Shown here in pieces: positions 32,281-41,521 of a stretch of DNA of 64,000 nt. Position 1 is the first letter of the stretch, and every line of letters begins with the position of its first letter. The notes beneath the pieces were generated by a model, which was not told the origin of the DNA, did no database searches, and was given only the letters and a program-made list of their open reading frames with translations. The DNA is from Natrarchaeobius halalkaliphilus (GTDB taxonomy: Archaea > Halobacteriota > Halobacteria > Halobacteriales > Natrialbaceae). The position numbers and the translations under genes are program-made. Location: positions 1 through 64,000 of the forward strand of contig NZ_REFY01000001.1 in NCBI RefSeq assembly GCF_003841485.1, read 5' to 3'.

Positions 32281-32475
32281 CTACTCCTCTTCGTCCTCGC
32301 GGATCCAGAACTCCATGACGAGGGGAATGAGCGAACCGAGGAGCAACAGCATCAACCCGAATCCCCAGACGAGTTCGTTCTCGGCCATCGTACCGTAACT
32401 GACGACGGGGAGGACGAGGAGGATCAGGACGAACGCGATCCCGTCGATGGTAATCGGTTCGGCGGGAAGGTTCAT
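32281..32475 (-). CDS. Small two-helix membrane protein linked to LctP
   Basis: The 64-residue protein has two hydrophobic segments (IAFVLILLVLPVVSYG and LVWGFGLMLLLLGSLIPLV) and an acidic end (IREDEEE). Its ATG overlaps the lctP stop by four bases (ATGA), implying translational coupling and probably a physical partnership with the permease. No known family is recognised. Confidence 0.75.
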   Translation of the reverse strand: MNLPAEPITIDGIAFVLILLVLPVVSYGTMAENELVWGFGLMLLLLGSLIPLVMEFWIREDEEE

Positions 32476-34166
32476 CCGCCACCTCCCAGGAAGACGAACC
32501 CGCTCACCAGCACGGTGAGTGCCCCGACCATGAGGGTCACGATCACGACCCAGGGGAGAGTGATCCGCAGGATGTCACCCTCTTTCCCCGGAATGCCGAC
32601 GGTTCCCGTACCGAGTACGACGTTCGACGGCGAAATGGCGTTCCCGACCGCACCGCCCGTCATCTGGCTGGCGAGTACCGACCACTGGGGCAGATCCAGC
32701 TCGTCGGCGGTCCCGTCCTGTAGCGGTGAGAACATGATGTTCGACGCGGTGTTGCTGCCGGTGATGAACGCCCCAAGGACGCCGATGCTGCTCGAGGCGA
32801 ACAGGTATGCGGTGGGCGGAAGAACCGCCGCGATACCGAGTGCCAGGACGGCTATCTGGCCGGTTTCGACCATGACGATCGCCATGATGATCAACAGGAT
32901 GATCGATAGCGAGGCCGGGATCGCGTTCTCTTTCACGCCGTCGAAAATCGTGCCTTCCTCCTCGACGTGTGGGGACGTCTCCATGACGCTCCGCCACTCG
33001 TCGTAGTATCCACGGCTCCTGAACAGGGCGTAACCGAAGAGGACGCCCACCAGGATAATCGATCCGGGATGCGTGAGGATCGCGAACGGTTCGTAGGGAT
33101 CCTCGGCGTCCTGCTCGAGGTAGCCGGTTTCGATCGCCGGGAACGAGAATCCGACTTCGAACTGGGCGAGCGACTCTTCGACCGGCGGGAACGCGACCAC
33201 GAGCGCGATCACGAGGAGGACGCCGTACGGGAGAAACGCCTCGACGAGGCCCATGACGGGGTCCGGTTCCTCCTCCTCATGTTCGTCCGCTGTCGGCTCG
33301 CCCCCATCCGTCGCCACGTCTCGAGACATCGACTCCTCCATCGCCGGTCGCTCGAACGGATCGTGTTGTTGATCGTACCGCTTCCACCGCGAGAGGGGGT
33401 ACAAGACGACGAGTGCGGCTGAAGCGGCGAGAAAGCCCGAGAGAAATGGACTGTAGATCGCCACTGCCATCAATCCGACCCACTGTACCGCACCGACGAC
33501 GAGGATCATCGGGAGCCCGTGTCGAACGCCGTTCCACCGCCCGTACAGCCAGGCGATGGCGATCCCGCCGGCGAGGATCGGGACGACGTGAATAATCGCC
33601 GTCTGGAGCGCAGTCTCGACCGGAGCCTCGAACGGTGCGACGGAATCGGCGGCGAACCATCCGACGGCCAGCGTTCCGAAGTTGTTGTTCCACGCGTGTC
33701 CGATCAGCGGGATCGCGACGGCGTAGATCGGCCGAACGCCGAGTGCGAGCAACAGCGGCGCGACGATGGCGATCGGAGCACCGAATCCCACGACCCCCTG
33801 GAGAAACGAGGCGAACAGCCAGCCGAATGCGAGAACGAGGAAGAGATCGTTACTACTGAACCGTTGTATTCTGACCCTGAGGGTGTAGAGGGCACCGGCA
33901 CGCTCCGTTACGAGGTACATCAGGACCGCCGGCCAGACGACGTACAAGACGAAAACGGCGTCCCAGACACCCTTTCCGACCGCGACGGCGTATGCGAACG
34001 GCGGTGCCTGAAAGACTGTAAGAGCGATGGCGGATGCGCCGAACATGCCCATAACAGCGGCCGTGTGAGCCGACCAGCGGTACCGAACCAGCAAAACGAG
34101 CAGGATCAGGATCGGGACGCTGGCGACGACCCAGTGGAAGAGATCGACGGGAAGAGCGTCGACCAC
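32472..34166 (-). CDS. lctP: L-lactate permease family transporter
   Basis: The 564-residue membrane protein has about 13 helices. LctP features include FLQGVVGFGAPIAIVAPLL, IPLIGHAWNNNFGTLAVGW, GVLGAFITGSNTASNIMFS and GGAVGNAISPSNVVLGTGT. An acidic cytoplasmic loop (about residues 275-305) is inserted mid-protein. The family imports L-lactate, D-lactate or glycolate with protons. The start is GTG. It follows ggt by 41 bp on the same strand and overlaps the small membrane protein, forming a three-gene operon. The pairing with a glutamyltransferase rather than lactate dehydrogenase makes the true substrate uncertain. Confidence 0.9.
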   Translation of the reverse strand: MVDALPVDLFHWVVASVPILILLVLLVRYRWSAHTAAVMGMFGASAIALTVFQAPPFAYAVAVGKGVWDAVFVLYVVWPAVLMYLVTERAGALYTLRVRIQRFSSNDLFLVLAFGWLFASFLQGVVGFGAPIAIVAPLLLALGVRPIYAVAIPLIGHAWNNNFGTLAVGWFAADSVAPFEAPVETALQTAIIHVVPILAGGIAIAWLYGRWNGVRHGLPMILVVGAVQWVGLMAVAIYSPFLSGFLAASAALVVLYPLSRWKRYDQQHDPFERPAMEESMSRDVATDGGEPTADEHEEEEPDPVMGLVEAFLPYGVLLVIALVVAFPPVEESLAQFEVGFSFPAIETGYLEQDAEDPYEPFAILTHPGSIILVGVLFGYALFRSRGYYDEWRSVMETSPHVEEEGTIFDGVKENAIPASLSIILLIIMAIVMVETGQIAVLALGIAAVLPPTAYLFASSSIGVLGAFITGSNTASNIMFSPLQDGTADELDLPQWSVLASQMTGGAVGNAISPSNVVLGTGTVGIPGKEGDILRITLPWVVIVTLMVGALTVLVSGFVFLGGGG

Positions 34167-34207: not shown

Positions 34208-35869
34208 TTAGTATCCGAGTGCCGAGCCGTCGCCTCGCGGATCAGCACCGCCCTCGAGCCACCCTCGCTCGCGATCGATGCGGATCGCCTGGGCGTGGCC
34301 CATGTTGTCGTCCCAGTCCGTGAGGACCCTCGTCGGTTGTCCGCGCAGACGCAGCCCGCGAACGACCTCGTCGGAGATACGCCCCTCGAGTGAGAGGTCG
34401 CGACTTTCGGTCCCCCACGTACGGCCCATGAGCCACCTCGGGGCCTCGATGGCCTGCTGGACGTCGTATCCGAAATCGACGAGGCGCGTCACCATCGCCG
34501 CGTGCGTCTGCGGTTGGCCTTCGCCGCCCATCGTCCCATAGAGCAGGTACGGGTCGTCGTCCCGGGTCAGCATCGCGGGAATGAGGGTGTGAAACGTCCG
34601 CTTTTCGGGCTCGAGGCGGTTCGGGTGGCTCTCGTCCAGCGAGAAGAACGAGCCCCTGTTTTGCATGATGATACCCGTATCGCCGCCGACGACGCCGCTC
34701 CCGAAGTCGTGATAGATCGACTGGATCACCGAGACGGCGAGCCCGTCCTCGTCGACGGCACAGAAATAGACCGTATCGCCGCCCGGATCGCTCGCGCGGT
34801 CGGCGTCCCCGTCGAACGTGATTCCGGGATCGACCGCCCCCATCTCGAGAGCGCTGTCGGCCTCGATTAGGTCCCGTCGGTCGTCCGCGTACCCCTTCGA
34901 GGTCAACTCGTCGACGGGGACGTCGACGAAGTCCGGATCGGTCAGCCACTCGTCGCGGTCGGCGAAGGCCACCTTGACGGCCTCCGCGAGGTGGTGATAG
35001 TACTCGACCGTCCCGTCACCCCAGCTTTCGACGTCGTAGTCTTCGAGGAGGTTGAGAACCTGGAGAGCCGCGAACCCCTGCGTGTTCGGCGGGAACTCGT
35101 AGGCGGTGTATCCGCGGTACGTGGTCGTAATGGGCTCTACCCACTCCGCTTCGAACTCCGCGAAGTCGTCGGCGAGGAGCGGAGAGCCACGGTCGTTCAG
35201 GTCCGCACAGATTCGCTCGGCGATCTCCCCGTCGTAGAACCCGTCTCTCGCCCCCCGTTCGGAGATGGTCTCGAGCGAATCAGCGAGATCGGGTTGTTCG
35301 ATTCGATCGCCGACCCCCGGGACGGAGCCGTCGGGGAGAAAAATGTCGCCGGACGAGGGATACTCCTCGAAGACCGGAACGTCCTCGACGATCCAGTCCG
35401 CCACCGAACGGCTGACTGGCATCCCCTCCTCGGCGTACTCGATCGCCGGTTCGAAGAGCCGTGACCAGGCAAGCGAGCCGAAAGAGTCGTGAGCCTCGCG
35501 CCACCCGTCGACCGCGCCCGGAACGGTCAGCGCGCTCTCCAGACCGCGTTCCGGGATCGTGTCCCGCCCCCGGTCACGGTAAAACGCTCGAGTGGCTTCG
35601 CGTCCGGTCGGCCCGCTCGCGTTCAGCGCGCGGACCTCGTCGTCGTCGGGAGCGTGGATCAGCCAGAAGCCATCACCGCCGAGTCCCGCCATGTGTGGGT
35701 AGACGACACAGAGCACGGCGTTCGCCGCGATCGCCGCATCGACCGCGCTTCCGCCCTCCTCGAGCGTCGTGATGCCAGCCTGACTCGCCAGGTGATGAGA
35801 CGTCGCGATCATTCCGTTCTCCGCCCGCGTCGGCGGTCGGCCGGTACGCGGCCCGCTGTATTCGGACAT
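34208..35869 (-). CDS. ggt: Gamma-glutamyltransferase
   Basis: The 553-residue enzyme matures by autocleavage before the nucleophilic Thr, here Thr366 in GGDTVYFCAVDEDG. Upstream are GLGGDGFWLIH, ALTVPGAVDGWREAH and FPPNTQGFAALQVLN; the small-subunit part has GSGVVGGDTGIIMQNRG and YGTMGGEGQPQTH (oxyanion and substrate loop). It transfers or hydrolyses gamma-glutamyl groups of thiols or peptides. No signal peptide is visible, whereas many bacterial homologues are exported. The ATG giving MSEYSG is supported by GTTTATTAA 23-31 bp upstream; an earlier ATG would lie within the promoter. It is first gene of the ggt-lctP operon. Confidence 0.92.
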   Translation of the reverse strand: MSEYSGPRTGRPPTRAENGMIATSHHLASQAGITTLEEGGSAVDAAIAANAVLCVVYPHMAGLGGDGFWLIHAPDDDEVRALNASGPTGREATRAFYRDRGRDTIPERGLESALTVPGAVDGWREAHDSFGSLAWSRLFEPAIEYAEEGMPVSRSVADWIVEDVPVFEEYPSSGDIFLPDGSVPGVGDRIEQPDLADSLETISERGARDGFYDGEIAERICADLNDRGSPLLADDFAEFEAEWVEPITTTYRGYTAYEFPPNTQGFAALQVLNLLEDYDVESWGDGTVEYYHHLAEAVKVAFADRDEWLTDPDFVDVPVDELTSKGYADDRRDLIEADSALEMGAVDPGITFDGDADRASDPGGDTVYFCAVDEDGLAVSVIQSIYHDFGSGVVGGDTGIIMQNRGSFFSLDESHPNRLEPEKRTFHTLIPAMLTRDDDPYLLYGTMGGEGQPQTHAAMVTRLVDFGYDVQQAIEAPRWLMGRTWGTESRDLSLEGRISDEVVRGLRLRGQPTRVLTDWDDNMGHAQAIRIDRERGWLEGGADPRGDGSALGY

Positions 35870-35891
35870 GTCGCTAGCGCCAGTACACGGG

Positions 35892-35900
35892 TTAATAAAC
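35892..35900 (-). promoter_or_regulatory. TATA box of the ggt-lctP operon
   Basis: The minus strand reads GTTTATTAA, centred about 27 bp from the chosen ggt ATG. This is one of the clearest promoters in the window. Confidence 0.65.
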
Positions 35901-36201
35901 AATATACATCGAATAATAGAAACTCTCTACACGATAGGGGTTCGTACGAGGTCGGTACGACGGCGATTATTCACTTCGTGCCTGCCACTCCCATCACTGT
36001 CCATCTCAGAAGCGGCGTACGGGTGAAAGTCCGTAACTGTCCGTCCAGAGCGCGGTATACGTACTGGTGTCGGTGACTATCGTAGTCTCTGAACATCACT
36101 ACACGTCTCGTCGCGCGACTGCTGTGCGGTCAGTGTGTCGAGAGTTGCAGTTGCGTCAGAACTGGTTTGAACGATGCTCGAGGGGGGAGGGCGACGCGTC
36201 G
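35901..36201. other. Intergenic region, nothing recognised
   Basis: About 300 bp lie between the ggt promoter and the end of the Nudix-IF2B gene. I see no ORF with halophile composition, no tRNA and no repeat. A weak stem (TACGG/CCGTA near 36017-36034) is probably chance. Confidence 0.5.
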
Positions 36202-37581
36202 TCATCGATCACGCCACGTTTCGAGTTCGCGCAACTCCTCGACGATATCCTCGAGTTCGTCGACCTCGAGCGATCCGGTTTCGGTGACGAGTTCGGTGAC
36301 GCACTCTGCGGGCGTCACGTCGAAAGTCGGGTTCGCGACGTCGACCGACGGATTGCCGTCGTAAACCGCGGCTCGGTCGCCGGACTCGAGGTTCACGGTG
36401 GTCCGCGTCGAGAGTTTGTCGGCTGCGGCGACGACCGTCACGGGGACGTTCTCGCGAGCGGCAGCGATCGAAACCGCTCGCGTTCCGGTCTTGTTCACTA
36501 CGGCACCGTCGGGTCGGACGGTGTCGGCCCCGACGACGACGCGATCGACGGCCTCGGTCGCGAGGACGTGGGCCGCGGCCGCGTCGGTGTGAACCGTCAC
36601 TGAACAGTCGAGGACCGAATCGCTCGCCAGCGTTTCCGCGACGCCAACACCCTCACGTCCCGGCCGGGATTCGGAGACGAAGACGCGGGACGGCGACCCC
36701 TCGCGGAGCGCATCGAGAACGGTTCCCGATCGCGAAAGCGTCAGCACGGTCCCGTCGATGCGTTCGCCGCCGTTGACCGCGGCGTCCTCGTCGGCCGCGG
36801 CGGCGCGCTCGATCCCCGAGATTGCGGACTCGAGAACGGCCGCTCCACCGGGAGGGTGGTCATCCGTTCGATCCGCATCTGCCATCGCCCGATTCACTCG
36901 ATTCCGGAGGACGGCCATCGAGGGCCGGGTCTCGAGCACTCGGCCGGCGAGTTCAGCGAGTTCGTTCCATTCGGCGTCGGAGCGCGTTTCGGCTCCGTCC
37001 GATTCGTGTGTGTTCCGTTCGGATCCGTCCGGTTCGCCCTCGGCCCGTTCTGCGACGAGTACGCCCGCTCGATCCCGCACGACCTCGAGCGCCCGGAGCG
37101 AGAGAAACGCCGCGCCGTGTTCGTCGTCGGCCGCGACGGAGCGGGCGGTCGGCGCGACGCGTTCGTAGGCCGTCCACAGTTTCGGCACGGTTTCGCGGCC
37201 GTCGGACGGATCGACGGTCGCCGTCGGGGAACGCCACTCGAAGGCGTCGTGTTCGTCGCTCAGTTTGACCTCGCGCGTGTCGCAGTCGAACAGGAAGGGA
37301 CGAACGATCCGCTCGCGGTCGAGATCCGGGTCTTCGAACTCGACTGGACGTCCCGATCGCACCAGCGAAACGCCGTCCTCGAGGCCGGTTTTCTCGCGAA
37401 TTTCGGTTCGAACCCGTTCGTCCGGCCGTCCCTCCGCGAAGCCGGAGACGCCGTCCCACCGGCCGACGTGACTACCGACAGCGTCGCTCCGACGTACCAA
37501 CAGGATCTCTCCACGGTTTCTTACGAACGCAGTGACGACGTGGCTCGGTTCCGATCCGTCGTCTCTCGTCGAGTCGGTCAT
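36202..37581 (-). CDS. Nudix domain fused to an eIF2B/ribose-1,5-bisphosphate isomerase-like domain
   Basis: The 459-residue protein has a Nudix-type N terminus (SHVVTAFVRNRGEILLVRRS, then GVSGFAEGRPDERVRTEIRE). After a low-complexity acidic linker (residues about 180-225) comes an IF-2B family domain (VLTLSRSGTVLDALREG, SRPGREGVGVAETL, VVVGADTVRPDGAVVNKTGT, NPTFDVTPAECVTELVTE). The Nudix box is imperfect (TEIREKTGL where REUxEExGU is expected). The IF-2B position usually held by Cys in isomerases is Thr (VTVHTDAAA), while the Asp of GAD is kept. It may sense or process nucleotides, or be regulatory. The ATG giving MTDSTRDDG is supported by a TATA-like AAATTATTCA 24-33 bp upstream. Confidence 0.75.
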   Translation of the reverse strand: MTDSTRDDGSEPSHVVTAFVRNRGEILLVRRSDAVGSHVGRWDGVSGFAEGRPDERVRTEIREKTGLEDGVSLVRSGRPVEFEDPDLDRERIVRPFLFDCDTREVKLSDEHDAFEWRSPTATVDPSDGRETVPKLWTAYERVAPTARSVAADDEHGAAFLSLRALEVVRDRAGVLVAERAEGEPDGSERNTHESDGAETRSDAEWNELAELAGRVLETRPSMAVLRNRVNRAMADADRTDDHPPGGAAVLESAISGIERAAAADEDAAVNGGERIDGTVLTLSRSGTVLDALREGSPSRVFVSESRPGREGVGVAETLASDSVLDCSVTVHTDAAAAHVLATEAVDRVVVGADTVRPDGAVVNKTGTRAVSIAAARENVPVTVVAAADKLSTRTTVNLESGDRAAVYDGNPSVDVANPTFDVTPAECVTELVTETGSLEVDELEDIVEELRELETWRDR

Positions 37582-37666: not shown

Positions 37667-39754
37667 ATGGGACGCGAGGAACTGACAGCAGACGCGAACG
37701 AAACGCCGGTTCGTCCGGATTCGAACGGTGCCCGGATCGGCGTCGACGTCGGTGGCACGTTCACCGACGTGGCACTCTCCGTCGAAGACCGGCTCGTGAC
37801 GGCGAAGGTCCCGACGACTGCCGACCAGCACGTCGGCGTCCTCGAGGGTATCGCCAAGGCCTGTGCGAAGGCGGACATCGAGCCGGGGGAGATCGACGAG
37901 TTCGCCCACGCGATGACCGTCTCGGTCAACGCGCTGCTCGAGCGGAGGGGTGCGACGACCGCCCTCGTCACGACCGCGGGGTTCCGTGACGTCCTCGAGA
38001 TCGGCCGACAGGATCGACCGAGTCTGTACGATCTCGAGGCGGAGAAGCCGACGCCGCTCGTACCCCGGACGCGTCGATTCGAGATCGACGAGCGGACGAC
38101 GCCGGACGGCATCGAACGAGCGGTCGATCCCGAGGAAGTACGCCAGCTTGCGGATACTCTGTGCGAGCGTGACGTCGAGGCGGTCGCGGTCTGTCTGCTT
38201 CACTCCTACAGCGATCCCGAAAACGAGACGACCGTCGCGAAGACGCTCCGTTCGGAGCTCGAGGTTCCGGTCTCGGTCTCACACGAGGTTCTCGCGGAGT
38301 TTCGCGAGTTCGAGCGGACGTCGACGACGGCGGTCGATGCCTACGTTCGACCGGCGATCGACAGCTACGTTGGACGGCTGGTCGAGGAGGCCGAGAACGA
38401 GGGAATTCCGGCCCCGCGAATCATGCAGGCCAACGGCGGCATCGCCAGCCCCCAGACGGTTCGCGATCGGGCGGTTACGACGACGCTGTCGGGACCGGCT
38501 GCGGGCGTCGTCGGCGCGACGGCGGCCGCGGACGATTCGACGGCCGCGGGTCTCGTCACGTTCGACATGGGCGGAACCTCGAGCGACGTGAGTCTCGTCC
38601 GGGACGGCCGAGTCGAGCGGACGACCGACGCCGACATCGACGGACTGCCGATCCGCACGCCGATGGTCGACGTAAACACCGTCGGTGCGGGCGGCGGCTC
38701 GATCGCCTGGGTCGACGCCGGCGGCGCGCTTCGAGTCGGACCGCGGTCGGCGGGTGCGGATCCCGGCCCGGCCTGTTACGGTCGCGGCGGGACCGAACCA
38801 ACAGTGACCGACGCCAACGTCGTTCTGGGTTACATCGGCTCCGAGACCGCCCTCGGCGGCGAACTGTCCCTCGACGTCGAGGCGGCCCACGAGGCGCTCG
38901 AGGGACTGGCCGAGGAGGCGGACCTCGACGGCGCACTCGAGGCGGCTCACGGCGTCTACCGCGTCGCGAACGCGACGATGACACGAACGATTCGGTCGAT
39001 CACGGTCGAACGAGGCCACGATCCGCGTGGATTCGCGCTCGTGGCATTCGGCGGAGCGGGACCGATGCACGCCGGGGCTCTCGCCGCTGCGCTCGATATC
39101 GATCAGGTCGTCGTTCCACGTCCCGGCGGCGTGCTTTCGGCGTTCGGTCTGCTCGCCGCCGACGAGAGCACGGACGCGGCCAGAACCGTCGGCATCGATC
39201 TCGAAACGGAGCCCGAAGCCGGGGCGACGCTCGAGGCGGACGCGCTCGAAGAGATCGGAGGGGTCTACGACGACCTCGTCGCGGACGCCCTCGGTGACGT
39301 CTCGGAGTCCGATCGCGTCCGCCTCGAGCGTGGCGCTGACTGTCGGTACACCGGCCAGAGCTTCGAGTTGACCGTTCCCGTCGACGATAGCTTCGACGCC
39401 GAGGTCGTCGCCGAACGCTTCCACGACGCCCACGAGCGGACGTACGGCTACACGATGGACGAGCCGATCGAGATCGTCACGCTCCGGGCGACGGCGACTG
39501 TTCCGCGGACGGATCCGAGCATCCGACACGACGGGCGAGGCGATGCGCTCGTCGGCTCTCGTGAGGTACACTTCTCCGAGACGGGCGCGTGGGAGACGAC
39601 GGTCTACGATCGGGACGCCCTCGAGTCGGGTGCGACGTTATCCGGACCGGCGATCCTCGAACAGGACGAGTGCACGACGGTCGTTCCGCCACAGTGGGAC
39701 GGCGAGGTCGGAACGGACGGGACGCTCCGGCTGACCCGGACGGGGGATGACTGA
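37667..39754 (+). CDS. hyuA: Hydantoinase A/5-oxoprolinase-type subunit
   Basis: The 695-residue protein of the ASKHA-fold HyuA family has GVDVGGTFTDVALSVEDRL at residues about 17-35, HAMTVSVNALLERRG, LSGPAAGVVGA, VTFDMGGTSSDVSLV, VNTVGAGGGSIAW, and AFGGAGPMHAGALAAAL. With HyuB it forms an ATP-dependent enzyme that opens N-methylhydantoin, 5-oxoproline or, in acetone-carboxylase relatives, carboxylates ketones. The ATG is chosen because the frame upstream is the Nudix promoter region and TTTAACC is at the right distance. hyuB follows after three bases. Confidence 0.92.
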   Translation: MGREELTADANETPVRPDSNGARIGVDVGGTFTDVALSVEDRLVTAKVPTTADQHVGVLEGIAKACAKADIEPGEIDEFAHAMTVSVNALLERRGATTALVTTAGFRDVLEIGRQDRPSLYDLEAEKPTPLVPRTRRFEIDERTTPDGIERAVDPEEVRQLADTLCERDVEAVAVCLLHSYSDPENETTVAKTLRSELEVPVSVSHEVLAEFREFERTSTTAVDAYVRPAIDSYVGRLVEEAENEGIPAPRIMQANGGIASPQTVRDRAVTTTLSGPAAGVVGATAAADDSTAAGLVTFDMGGTSSDVSLVRDGRVERTTDADIDGLPIRTPMVDVNTVGAGGGSIAWVDAGGALRVGPRSAGADPGPACYGRGGTEPTVTDANVVLGYIGSETALGGELSLDVEAAHEALEGLAEEADLDGALEAAHGVYRVANATMTRTIRSITVERGHDPRGFALVAFGGAGPMHAGALAAALDIDQVVVPRPGGVLSAFGLLAADESTDAARTVGIDLETEPEAGATLEADALEEIGGVYDDLVADALGDVSESDRVRLERGADCRYTGQSFELTVPVDDSFDAEVVAERFHDAHERTYGYTMDEPIEIVTLRATATVPRTDPSIRHDGRGDALVGSREVHFSETGAWETTVYDRDALESGATLSGPAILEQDECTTVVPPQWDGEVGTDGTLRLTRTGDD

Positions 39755-39757
39755 ACC

Positions 39758-41521
39758 ATGACACACAATTCGAACGACGACGCGAACGACGACGGTGAAA
39801 CCTGCCGGTCGAGCGATTCAGAGACGGACGATCCGGACATCGATCCGGTGACGCTCGAGGTGCTTCGCAACCAGCTGGAGGGGGTCGCAGAGGAGATGGG
39901 ACAGACGCTGATCCGCGGTGCGTACTCACCGAACATCAAAGAGCGTCGGGACTGTTCGACGGCGCTGTTCGACGCCGAGGGACGGACGATCGCACAGGCC
40001 GAGCACATCCCGGTCCACCTGGGAGCGATGCCCGCGGCGGTCGAGGCCGTTCGCGAGCGAAACCCCAATCCCGGCGACGTCTTCGTGCTCAATGACCCCT
40101 TTACCGGGGGAACGCACCTTCCCGACGTGACTCTGGTTTCGCCCCTCGCACCCGGGTCAGGCCGCGGGAGCGAGGATAAGCCCGATGAGGACGGTCACCG
40201 ATCCGAACCCGACAGCGGCGAGAACGGTCGGGTCGGGAGTGACGACGAGAACGACGACTGTCGAACCGAAAGTGACGACGACATCGTGGGATATGCCGTC
40301 TCTCGAGCCCACCACGCGGACGTCGGCGGGTCGTCACCCGGCAGTATGCCTGCGGACTCGAGGGAGATCTATCAGGAGGGACTTCGCATCCCGCCGACCC
40401 GCCTCGTCGCGGCGGGCGACGTCAGAGAGGACGTCCGATCGCTCGTGCTCGCGAACGTGCGGAATCCGGGCGAGCGTCGCGCCGATCTCAGAGCCCAGCT
40501 CGCCGCGAACGAGCGCGCCGAGACCAGGCTCGGGGCGCTGTTCGACGAACACGGACGCGAGACCGTACTGGCTGGCTTCGACGACGTGATCGAGTACTCC
40601 CGCGCGCGCCTGGAAACCGAGATCGAGACGCTTCCGGACGGCACGTTCGAGGCGACGGACGTCCTCGAGGGCGACGGCGTCGTCGACGAAGACATCGAGA
40701 TCAGCGTGGCGGTGACCATCGACGGACCGACGATCGACGTCGATTTCGCCGGCACGGCAGAACAGCTCGCGGGCAACCTCAACGCACCGATGGCAGTCGC
40801 TCGGAGTGCGGTCTACTTCGTCGTCCGCTGTGTTACCGATCCGGAAATCCCGCCGAACCACGGCTGTTACGTGCCCGTCAGCGTCCACGCACCCGACGGG
40901 TCGCTCCTGAACCCGAACTCCCCGGCAGCGGTCGTCGGGGGGAACGTCGAGACCAGCCAGCGGGTGACGGACGTGGTTTTCACCGCCCTCGCGTCGGCGG
41001 TTCCGGATCGCGTCCCCGCACAGGGCCAGGGAACGATGAACAACCTGACGATCGGCGGACGGGGCAGTTCCTTTACCTACTACGAGACCATCGGCGGCGG
41101 ATTCGGTGCCCGCTCGGACCGCGAGGGCATGGACGGCGTTCAGGTCGGGATGACGAACACGCTCAACACCCCGATCGAGTCGCTCGAGACCGAGTACCCG
41201 CTTCGGGTCGACCGGTACGCGCTCCGACCGGACAGCGGTGGCCGTGGCACGCATCGGGGTGGTCTCGGCCTCGAGCGGACGCTCACCGTCGAAGCCGACG
41301 CGACGGTGTCCGTCCTCACCGAGCGGCGACGCCACGGGCCGAAAGGAGTCGCCGGCGGGGAGGACGGCGCACCCGGCGAGAACCTGATCGATGGCGAGGT
41401 CGTCCCCGCGAAGACGACCGTCGACGTCGAGACGGGAACGACGGTGACGATCCGGACACCCGGTGGCGGCGGCCACGGCGATCCCGACGATTCACGCGCG
41501 ACAGACGATCGCTCCGAGTGA
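39758..41521 (+). CDS. hyuB: Hydantoinase B/5-oxoprolinase-type subunit with an acidic insertion
   Basis: The 587-residue partner of HyuA shows PVTLEVLRNQLEGVAEEMG, GAYSPNIKERRDCSTALFD, FVLNDPFTGGTHLPDVTLV, SRAHHADVGGSSPGSMP, VVGGNVETSQRVTDVVF and GGGFGARSDREGMDGVQVG, all HyuB landmarks. Between DVTLVSPLA and IVGYAVSR an insertion of about 45 residues, almost wholly Asp/Glu/Ser/Gly, replaces what is normally a short turn (about 40147-40287). It is probably a disordered surface loop. The substrate cannot be fixed by sequence; nearby ggt makes 5-oxoproline plausible. Confidence 0.92.
   Translation: MTHNSNDDANDDGETCRSSDSETDDPDIDPVTLEVLRNQLEGVAEEMGQTLIRGAYSPNIKERRDCSTALFDAEGRTIAQAEHIPVHLGAMPAAVEAVRERNPNPGDVFVLNDPFTGGTHLPDVTLVSPLAPGSGRGSEDKPDEDGHRSEPDSGENGRVGSDDENDDCRTESDDDIVGYAVSRAHHADVGGSSPGSMPADSREIYQEGLRIPPTRLVAAGDVREDVRSLVLANVRNPGERRADLRAQLAANERAETRLGALFDEHGRETVLAGFDDVIEYSRARLETEIETLPDGTFEATDVLEGDGVVDEDIEISVAVTIDGPTIDVDFAGTAEQLAGNLNAPMAVARSAVYFVVRCVTDPEIPPNHGCYVPVSVHAPDGSLLNPNSPAAVVGGNVETSQRVTDVVFTALASAVPDRVPAQGQGTMNNLTIGGRGSSFTYYETIGGGFGARSDREGMDGVQVGMTNTLNTPIESLETEYPLRVDRYALRPDSGGRGTHRGGLGLERTLTVEADATVSVLTERRRHGPKGVAGGEDGAPGENLIDGEVVPAKTTVDVETGTTVTIRTPGGGGHGDPDDSRATDDRSE

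Follow-up and report, generated by a model that had tools for sequence, protein, structure and literature searches.

Serine replaces the catalytic cysteine of ribose-1,5-bisphosphate isomerase in a clade-wide haloarchaeal Nudix–IF-2B fusion family

The background question to the locus described here is by what route the regulatory core of eIF2B arose from a sugar-phosphate isomerase. The closest described proteins are the ribose-1,5-bisphosphate (R15P) isomerases (PH0208, TK0185; TIGR00511), human eIF2B-alpha and a haloarchaeal protein of unusual domain make-up. According to the portions of PMC5789824 consulted, the C135S variant of PH0208 is catalytically dead and still binds R15P (Kd 13.8 µM), and human eIF2B-alpha has Ala at the Cys position; the accessible text of PMC8187479 describes binding of fructose 6-phosphate (F6P) by human eIF2B-alpha through residues including E198, N208 and K234. 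In H. volcanii, HVO_1934 is annotated as a NUDIX family hydrolase/eIF-2B domain protein ('aIF2Bsu', 43.2 kDa) in Table 1 of PMC8576121, the consulted part of which also states that archaea lack the catalytic eIF2B subunits.

The window, i.e. the whole 64,000-nucleotide stretch of Natrarchaeobius halalkaliphilus DNA analysed, encodes a protein of this two-domain type (Table 1). The first-pass annotation had described it as a fusion of a Nudix and an IF-2B domain, and both halves were recovered: PF01008 matched residues 205–438 with 151.3 bits (gathering cut-off 22.4), and the N-terminal ~130 residues matched the MutT-related PDB chain 3grn (E value 1.5e-6; phmmer 3grn_A, residues 16–135), further profile matches of this half in the PDB being NudI and MutT-related or MutT-like proteins. 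The Pfam NUDIX model gave no match to the window's protein at E<=1 and matched 16 of 28 aligned relatives. An AlphaFold2 model built on 28 aligned sequences (mean pLDDT 92.9, pTM 0.91) resembled a Nudix fold in its N-terminal part (3grn_B, Z 16.2, rmsd 2.3, 133 aligned, model residues 8–147) and the R15P isomerase fold in its C-terminal part (3vm6_A, Z 32.6, rmsd 2.8, 294 aligned).

Table 1. Features of the fusion gene and its product (positions in the window; 'listed' refers to the 113 family members among the matches listed)
Feature	Position	Strand	Basis or comment
Nudix–IF-2B fusion gene, 459 aa	36202..37581	-	ATG start; model pLDDT 92.9, pTM 0.91
Nudix domain, ~residues 13–143	37153..37545	-	3grn_B structure match and phmmer 3grn_A
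IF-2B domain, ~residues 144–459	36205..37152	-	PF01008; 3vm6_A structure match
Nudix box region G47–L67 (GFAEGRPDERVRTEIREKTGL)	37381..37443	-	2 residues under canonical length; no Arg before E60; K64 for Glu
K64 codon AAA, private change	37390..37392	-	family counts
H155 for R22 (PH0208 1-phosphate Arg)	37117..37119	-	H 107/113 listed; R15P isomerases R 31/31
R219 = PH0208 R65 (1-phosphate), kept	36925..36927	-	R 109/113 listed
TLSRSGTV, counterpart of THCHSKAA; actual site of the catalytic Cys	36718..36741	-	alignments
S283 for catalytic C135	36733..36735	-	S 113/113 listed; R15P isomerases C 31/31
S285 = S137 (5-phosphate), kept	36727..36729	-	113/113 listed
E310 for Q166 (1-phosphate)	36652..36654	-	E 113/113 listed; R15P isomerases Q 31/31
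D353 = D204 (catalytic/sugar Asp), kept	36523..36525	-	113/113 listed
N363-K364 = N214-K215 (sugar), kept	36490..36495	-	each 113/113 listed
K389 = K240 (5-phosphate), kept	36415..36417	-	113/113 listed

The fusion is widespread within one order. Among 294 genomes sampled across the phylum (53 of the order Halobacteriales, 241 outside it), full-length matches (E < 1e-120) were found in 36/53 Halobacteriales genomes and 0/241 others, where the best matches were 1.9e-45 or weaker and covered the IF-2B part only. Within the window's taxonomic family, 120/125 genomes returned a match at 1e-50 or better, the other five giving paralog-level matches (three of these genomes are 66–70 % complete). Named carriers of the fusion include Natronorubrum, Natrinema, Haladaptatus, Halorussus, Halococcus and Natronomonas. 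In the tree, its members make up a single clade (100/99) that is distinct from those of R15P isomerase, MtnA and an aIF2B-delta-like haloarchaeal paralog. Scores against curated models fell well below the cut-offs for R15P isomerase (TIGR00511, 105.3 vs 314.1 bits), MtnA (TIGR00512, 77.8 vs 279 bits; the two clades are separate, each with 100 % bootstrap) and the NCBIfam aIF2B alpha and delta families (66 and 52.8 vs 339 and 249 bits). The aIF2B-delta-like paralog, represented in this genome by L002 (1459–2313), which we take to be of the HVO_2706 type, is with its orthologs nearly universal in haloarchaea (139/145 genomes); it keeps the catalytic Asp, the Asn and the 5-phosphate Ser and Lys, and is thus a second natural Cys-less pocket.

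A Thr in VTVHTDAAA had been named as the replacement for the catalytic Cys of the isomerases. The Cys is indeed absent, but the residue was misplaced: in two alignments, VTVHTDAAA pairs with VDSAARHYM/VDNAARRYL of R15P isomerase and not with the THC motif, which rules it out as the Cys position. Cys135 of PH0208 lies in MTHCHSKAA, and its counterpart in the fusion is S283 of TLSRSGTV. A different Cys in the active site was considered and rejected, as the aligned position is Ser in 113/113 of the listed members and, by eye, the protein's other Cys residues lie outside the pocket motifs. The Asp of VGADTV, correctly noted as retained, is D353 (113/113 among the matches listed) and corresponds to the catalytic D204 of R15P isomerase.

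To compare the rest of the pocket, the PH0208 contact residues given in the consulted text of PMC5789824 were mapped onto the fusion by way of L001, this genome's R15P isomerase. The comparison covers 113 members (the window's protein, P0001, plus 92 and 20 others), taken from the matches listed in whole-protein searches and not picked by TLSRSGTV, with sampling weighted towards the taxonomic family of the window and some loci perhaps representing one genome reached twice. S283, S285, T287, E310, D353, N363, K364 and K389 are each present in 113/113 of these listed members. Ser283 was also found in 145/145 of a wider non-redundant set, a circular count, since search patterns including TLSRSGTV supplied as many as 80 of the loci; in this partly motif-selected set, the K389 position is Ser in 1/145. 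By contrast, 31 haloarchaeal R15P isomerases have Cys, Gln and Arg22 in 31 cases each, and 20/20 aIF2B-delta-like paralogs have Asp at the Cys site. Judged from these alignments, the invariance of Ser283 and Glu310 (each 113/113 listed, vs Cys and Gln in 31/31 isomerases) exceeds chance. Among the 1-phosphate residues of PH0208, R65 and K215 are kept, while R22 has become His and Q166 Glu, so that the 1-phosphate site has lost positive charge. The literature searches, outside which most subscription papers lay, returned no mention of the Ser and Glu substitutions or of the Nudix losses described below in the passages covered.

Because the Cys is gone while the 5-phosphate and sugar contacts and the Asp are kept, and given the precedents of PH0208 C135S and eIF2B-alpha, we read the IF-2B half as a pocket that would bind a sugar phosphate without isomerising it. 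The fusion as a whole would then be a non-isomerising sugar-monophosphate binder derived from the IF-2B/R15P-isomerase superfamily, a reading to which we assign a probability of about 0.5, its ligand and purpose being our inference. The loss of positive charge at the 1-phosphate site would make a sugar 5- or 6-monophosphate a likelier ligand than R15P; candidates include ribose 5-phosphate, F6P (cf. human eIF2B-alpha) and a nucleoside 5'-monophosphate. Ligand binding may open or close the two-domain cleft or alter the oligomer state, and the fusion may act as a metabolite-responsive partner or buffer. The expected effect of the Cys-to-Ser change is extrapolated from one distant relative, PH0208 (28 % identity over 290 aligned residues, C135S structure 5yfs_A), and E310 could pair with R219 or K364 instead of changing specificity. 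The passages of the literature consulted for this analysis held no report of a ligand or activity for any member of the fusion family.

The total invariance of S283, E310, D353 and K364 would also fit an enzyme of altered chemistry. In such a retooled enzyme, the pocket would catalyse a different sugar-phosphate reaction, with the invariant Glu310 at the C1 end as the base of an enediol (aldose–ketose) isomerisation of a monophosphate and Ser283, Asp353 and Lys364 as its partners. Eight pocket positions invariant in 113 low-identity members among the matches listed are the pattern of an active site, and a structure match to ribose-5-phosphate isomerase A (Z 13–14), a Glu/Asp enzyme, was also obtained for the C-terminal fold of a relative. 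Glu310 occupies the position at which, in the consulted text of PMC5789824, R15P isomerase contacts the 1-phosphate close to C1. However, no IF-2B member with such chemistry appeared in the literature passages covered, the C135S variant of the relative is dead and deletion of HVO_1934 in H. volcanii is silent in the published account consulted, though redundancy could mask an effect; we consider this explanation, the main rival, unlikely, if credible enough to be kept in view.

An R15P or AMP sensor serving the pentose bisphosphate pathway, which has been shown in halophiles (PMC9700705), would agree with R15P binding by PH0208 C135S as described in the source text consulted, and a link to the archaeal AMP pathway had been suggested for this protein. 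A separate, intact R15P isomerase gene, which the first-pass annotation had proposed to look for, exists in the genome (L001, 1405–2412; 455.6 bits, cut-off 314.1), and the distribution of the two genes could be compared. Across 145 genomes of the order, the fusion is found in 121 and R15P isomerase in 89 (88 above the curated cut-off), with both genes in 72, the fusion only in 49, the isomerase only in 17 and neither in 7. R15P isomerase thus accompanies the fusion in 72/121 carriers and occurs in 17/24 non-carriers (Fisher p 0.36), four of the non-carriers being identified as genomes in the isomerase or delta-paralog results that are absent among the listed fusion carriers. As their presence is uncorrelated, the two genes are independent, and 49/121 carriers without the isomerase and 17/24 non-carriers with it argue against a sensor for its pathway. 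The AMP-binding R124, R190 and D290 are present in 31/31, 28/31 and 31/31 haloarchaeal R15P isomerases; at these positions, the fusion family has R in 46/93, A in 75/93 and D in 29/93, so the AMP site is not kept, and the 1-phosphate residues R22 and Q166 are replaced. The proposed AMP link therefore finds no support, and a sensor of R15P or AMP is the least probable of the explanations considered here.

The Nudix half tells a different story from the IF-2B half. As had been reported for the segment TEIREKTGL, no Arg stands ahead of the first Glu and the last Glu is lacking, and the window's protein departs from the canonical box GX5EX7REUXEEXGU in these two residues and in being two residues short. 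The absence of a canonical box does not prove inactivity, since 38/78 Nudix structures surveyed lack it according to the consulted text of PMC5389931. Among the matches listed, Lys at position 64 occurs only in the window's protein, where a single base separates the AAA codon from GAA, and E60, E63 and E64 are found in 92, 100 and 92 of 113 aligned members, with the complete triad in 90/113; Arg precedes E60 in 18/93 family members. Nudix inactivity as a family trait is rejected, K64 being private and loss of the Arg being frequent in relatives whose Glu triad is intact. The earlier statement that the motifs of both halves are altered is overstated for the Nudix half, whose triad is mostly intact. 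The suggestion of a binder rather than an isomerase is supported for the IF-2B half, through S283 rather than the residue originally named. In most species, where the triad is retained, the Nudix domain probably hydrolyses a nucleotide or NDP-sugar, and K64 may weaken this activity in the window's species. An attractive link would be a Nudix ADP-ribose hydrolase yielding ribose 5-phosphate, which would suit the IF-2B pocket.

These data bear on a further alternative, in which the work is done by the Nudix half while the IF-2B half serves only as an oligomerisation scaffold, i.e. a Nudix hydrolase mounted on an IF-2B hexamer. The triad in 90/113 listed members, the fold (Z 16) and the NudI/MutT-related profile matches all agree with it, yet by a simple rule the Nudix box has been lost in 20/113 of the listed members, and two proteins (L274 and L275, 280 and 288 aa) consist of the IF-2B domain alone, while the IF-2B pocket is invariant. 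On a tree of 55 members plus outgroup, in which the 'partial' label of L085 rests on a doubtful alignment, box loss needs 10 changes, five of them forced by well-supported branches. For the box-less member L091 (model pLDDT 89.9), no Nudix chain was found among the best 50 structure matches, although a Nudix fold may persist there. One genome (G273) carries two fusion copies (L086 and L087), both with the box lost. Compared across the family, the Nudix half is dispensable over evolution and the IF-2B pocket is not, and a mere scaffold would not retain D353, N363, K364, K389 and S285; we therefore regard the scaffold explanation as improbable.

A role in translation control had also been suggested, and the current annotation implies a haloarchaeal aIF2B subunit that senses metabolites and tunes initiation. 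Homology to the eIF2B regulatory subunits and the sugar-phosphate precedent of eIF2B-alpha speak for it, as does the recovery of HVO_1934 together with one RNA polymerase subunit used as bait (PMC8576121, in the part consulted). In the same text, however, few interactions are reported for HVO_1934, only one or two of them with aIFs, and no complex of three subunits, and the archaea lack the catalytic eIF2B subunits; the fusion also scores far under the NCBIfam aIF2B cut-offs. According to the accessible text of PMC3828320, the HVO_1934 deletion strain showed no phenotype under the 12 conditions tried, and the HVO_1934/HVO_2706 double deletion was viable and readily made. For the double mutant, that source is divided, the text describing it as indistinguishable and the legend of Figure 6 giving differences on complex, sucrose and xylose media. 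Since deletion of HVO_1934 lacks a clear phenotype, the protein is unlikely to be a central regulator under laboratory conditions. A translation role is disfavoured, finding no support in the H. volcanii deletions as published in the text consulted, and a metabolite-sensing initiation factor subunit seems to us highly improbable.

The gene neighbourhood did not indicate a shared pathway among the neighbours at 120 loci. In counts that are rough owing to a home-made ORF caller that mis-called some genes, the downstream neighbour is a co-directional D-2-hydroxyacid dehydrogenase in 38/120 loci (gaps mostly 80–240 bases), and recurrent divergent genes upstream encode a metallophosphoesterase (24), an F420 ligase (CofE, 15) and an LLM oxidoreductase (13). 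The flanks in the window differ, comprising a gamma-glutamyltranspeptidase (34208–35902, -) and divergent 5-oxoprolinase/hydantoinase A and B genes (37667–39754, +; 39758–41521, +), in what looks like a gamma-glutamyl/5-oxoproline salvage locus; an L-lactate permease family transporter (PF02652) lies at 32472–34166 (-).

Taken together, the fusion is a real, previously annotated and clade-wide protein that stands out for two invariant pocket substitutions, Cys to Ser and Gln to Glu, rather than for the single-species K64, and the evidence speaks against annotating such proteins as initiation factors or isomerases. A substitution found clade-wide (no exception among the members examined), which in a relative leaves a dead but binding protein, would represent a second route from isomerase to binder. 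Extending the non-isomerising binder reading, we tentatively propose, as a possibility we would not yet lean on, a dedicated haloarchaeal sugar-phosphate receptor that arose from a disabled R15P-isomerase-like enzyme, acts outside any eIF2B complex and is wired to a ligand-making Nudix hydrolase. Such a receptor would have an origin parallel to that of eukaryotic eIF2B-alpha, with ribose 5-phosphate from ADP-ribose as an example ligand. If this is true, one polypeptide could serve for the study of the enzyme-to-receptor step in the eIF2B lineage, natural Nudix-less variants being at hand.

Among known systems, HVO_1934 shares the two-domain make-up and haloarchaeal origin of the fusion, a likeness drawn from its annotation. 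The Nudix half has the fold and a partial box in common with the Nudix NTP pyrophosphohydrolases of the NudI/MutT-related 3grn type, and differs in a box two residues shorter, in the Arg mostly lost and, in the window's species, in K64. Like the fusion, the aIF2B-delta-like paralog is a haloarchaeal IF-2B protein without the Cys and with His at position 22, but its Cys site is occupied by Asp, the Q166 position by Ile/Leu and the K215 position by Arg, and it lacks a Nudix domain and belongs to a separate clade. With R15P isomerase (PH0208, TK0185), the fusion shares the fold (Z 32), the catalytic Asp, the sugar Asn and Lys and the 5-phosphate Ser and Lys; it differs in having Ser for the catalytic Cys, Glu for the 1-phosphate Gln and His for Arg22, and in the added Nudix domain, an AMP site that is not kept and a score of 105 rather than 314 bits. 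Human eIF2B-alpha, an F6P-binding and non-catalytic member of the same superfamily, likewise lacks the catalytic Cys and keeps the sugar Asn and the phosphate Lys; the fusion differs in Ser rather than Ala at the Cys site, in Asp where eIF2B-alpha has Glu198 and in coming from archaea, which have no catalytic eIF2B subunits according to the consulted text of PMC8576121.
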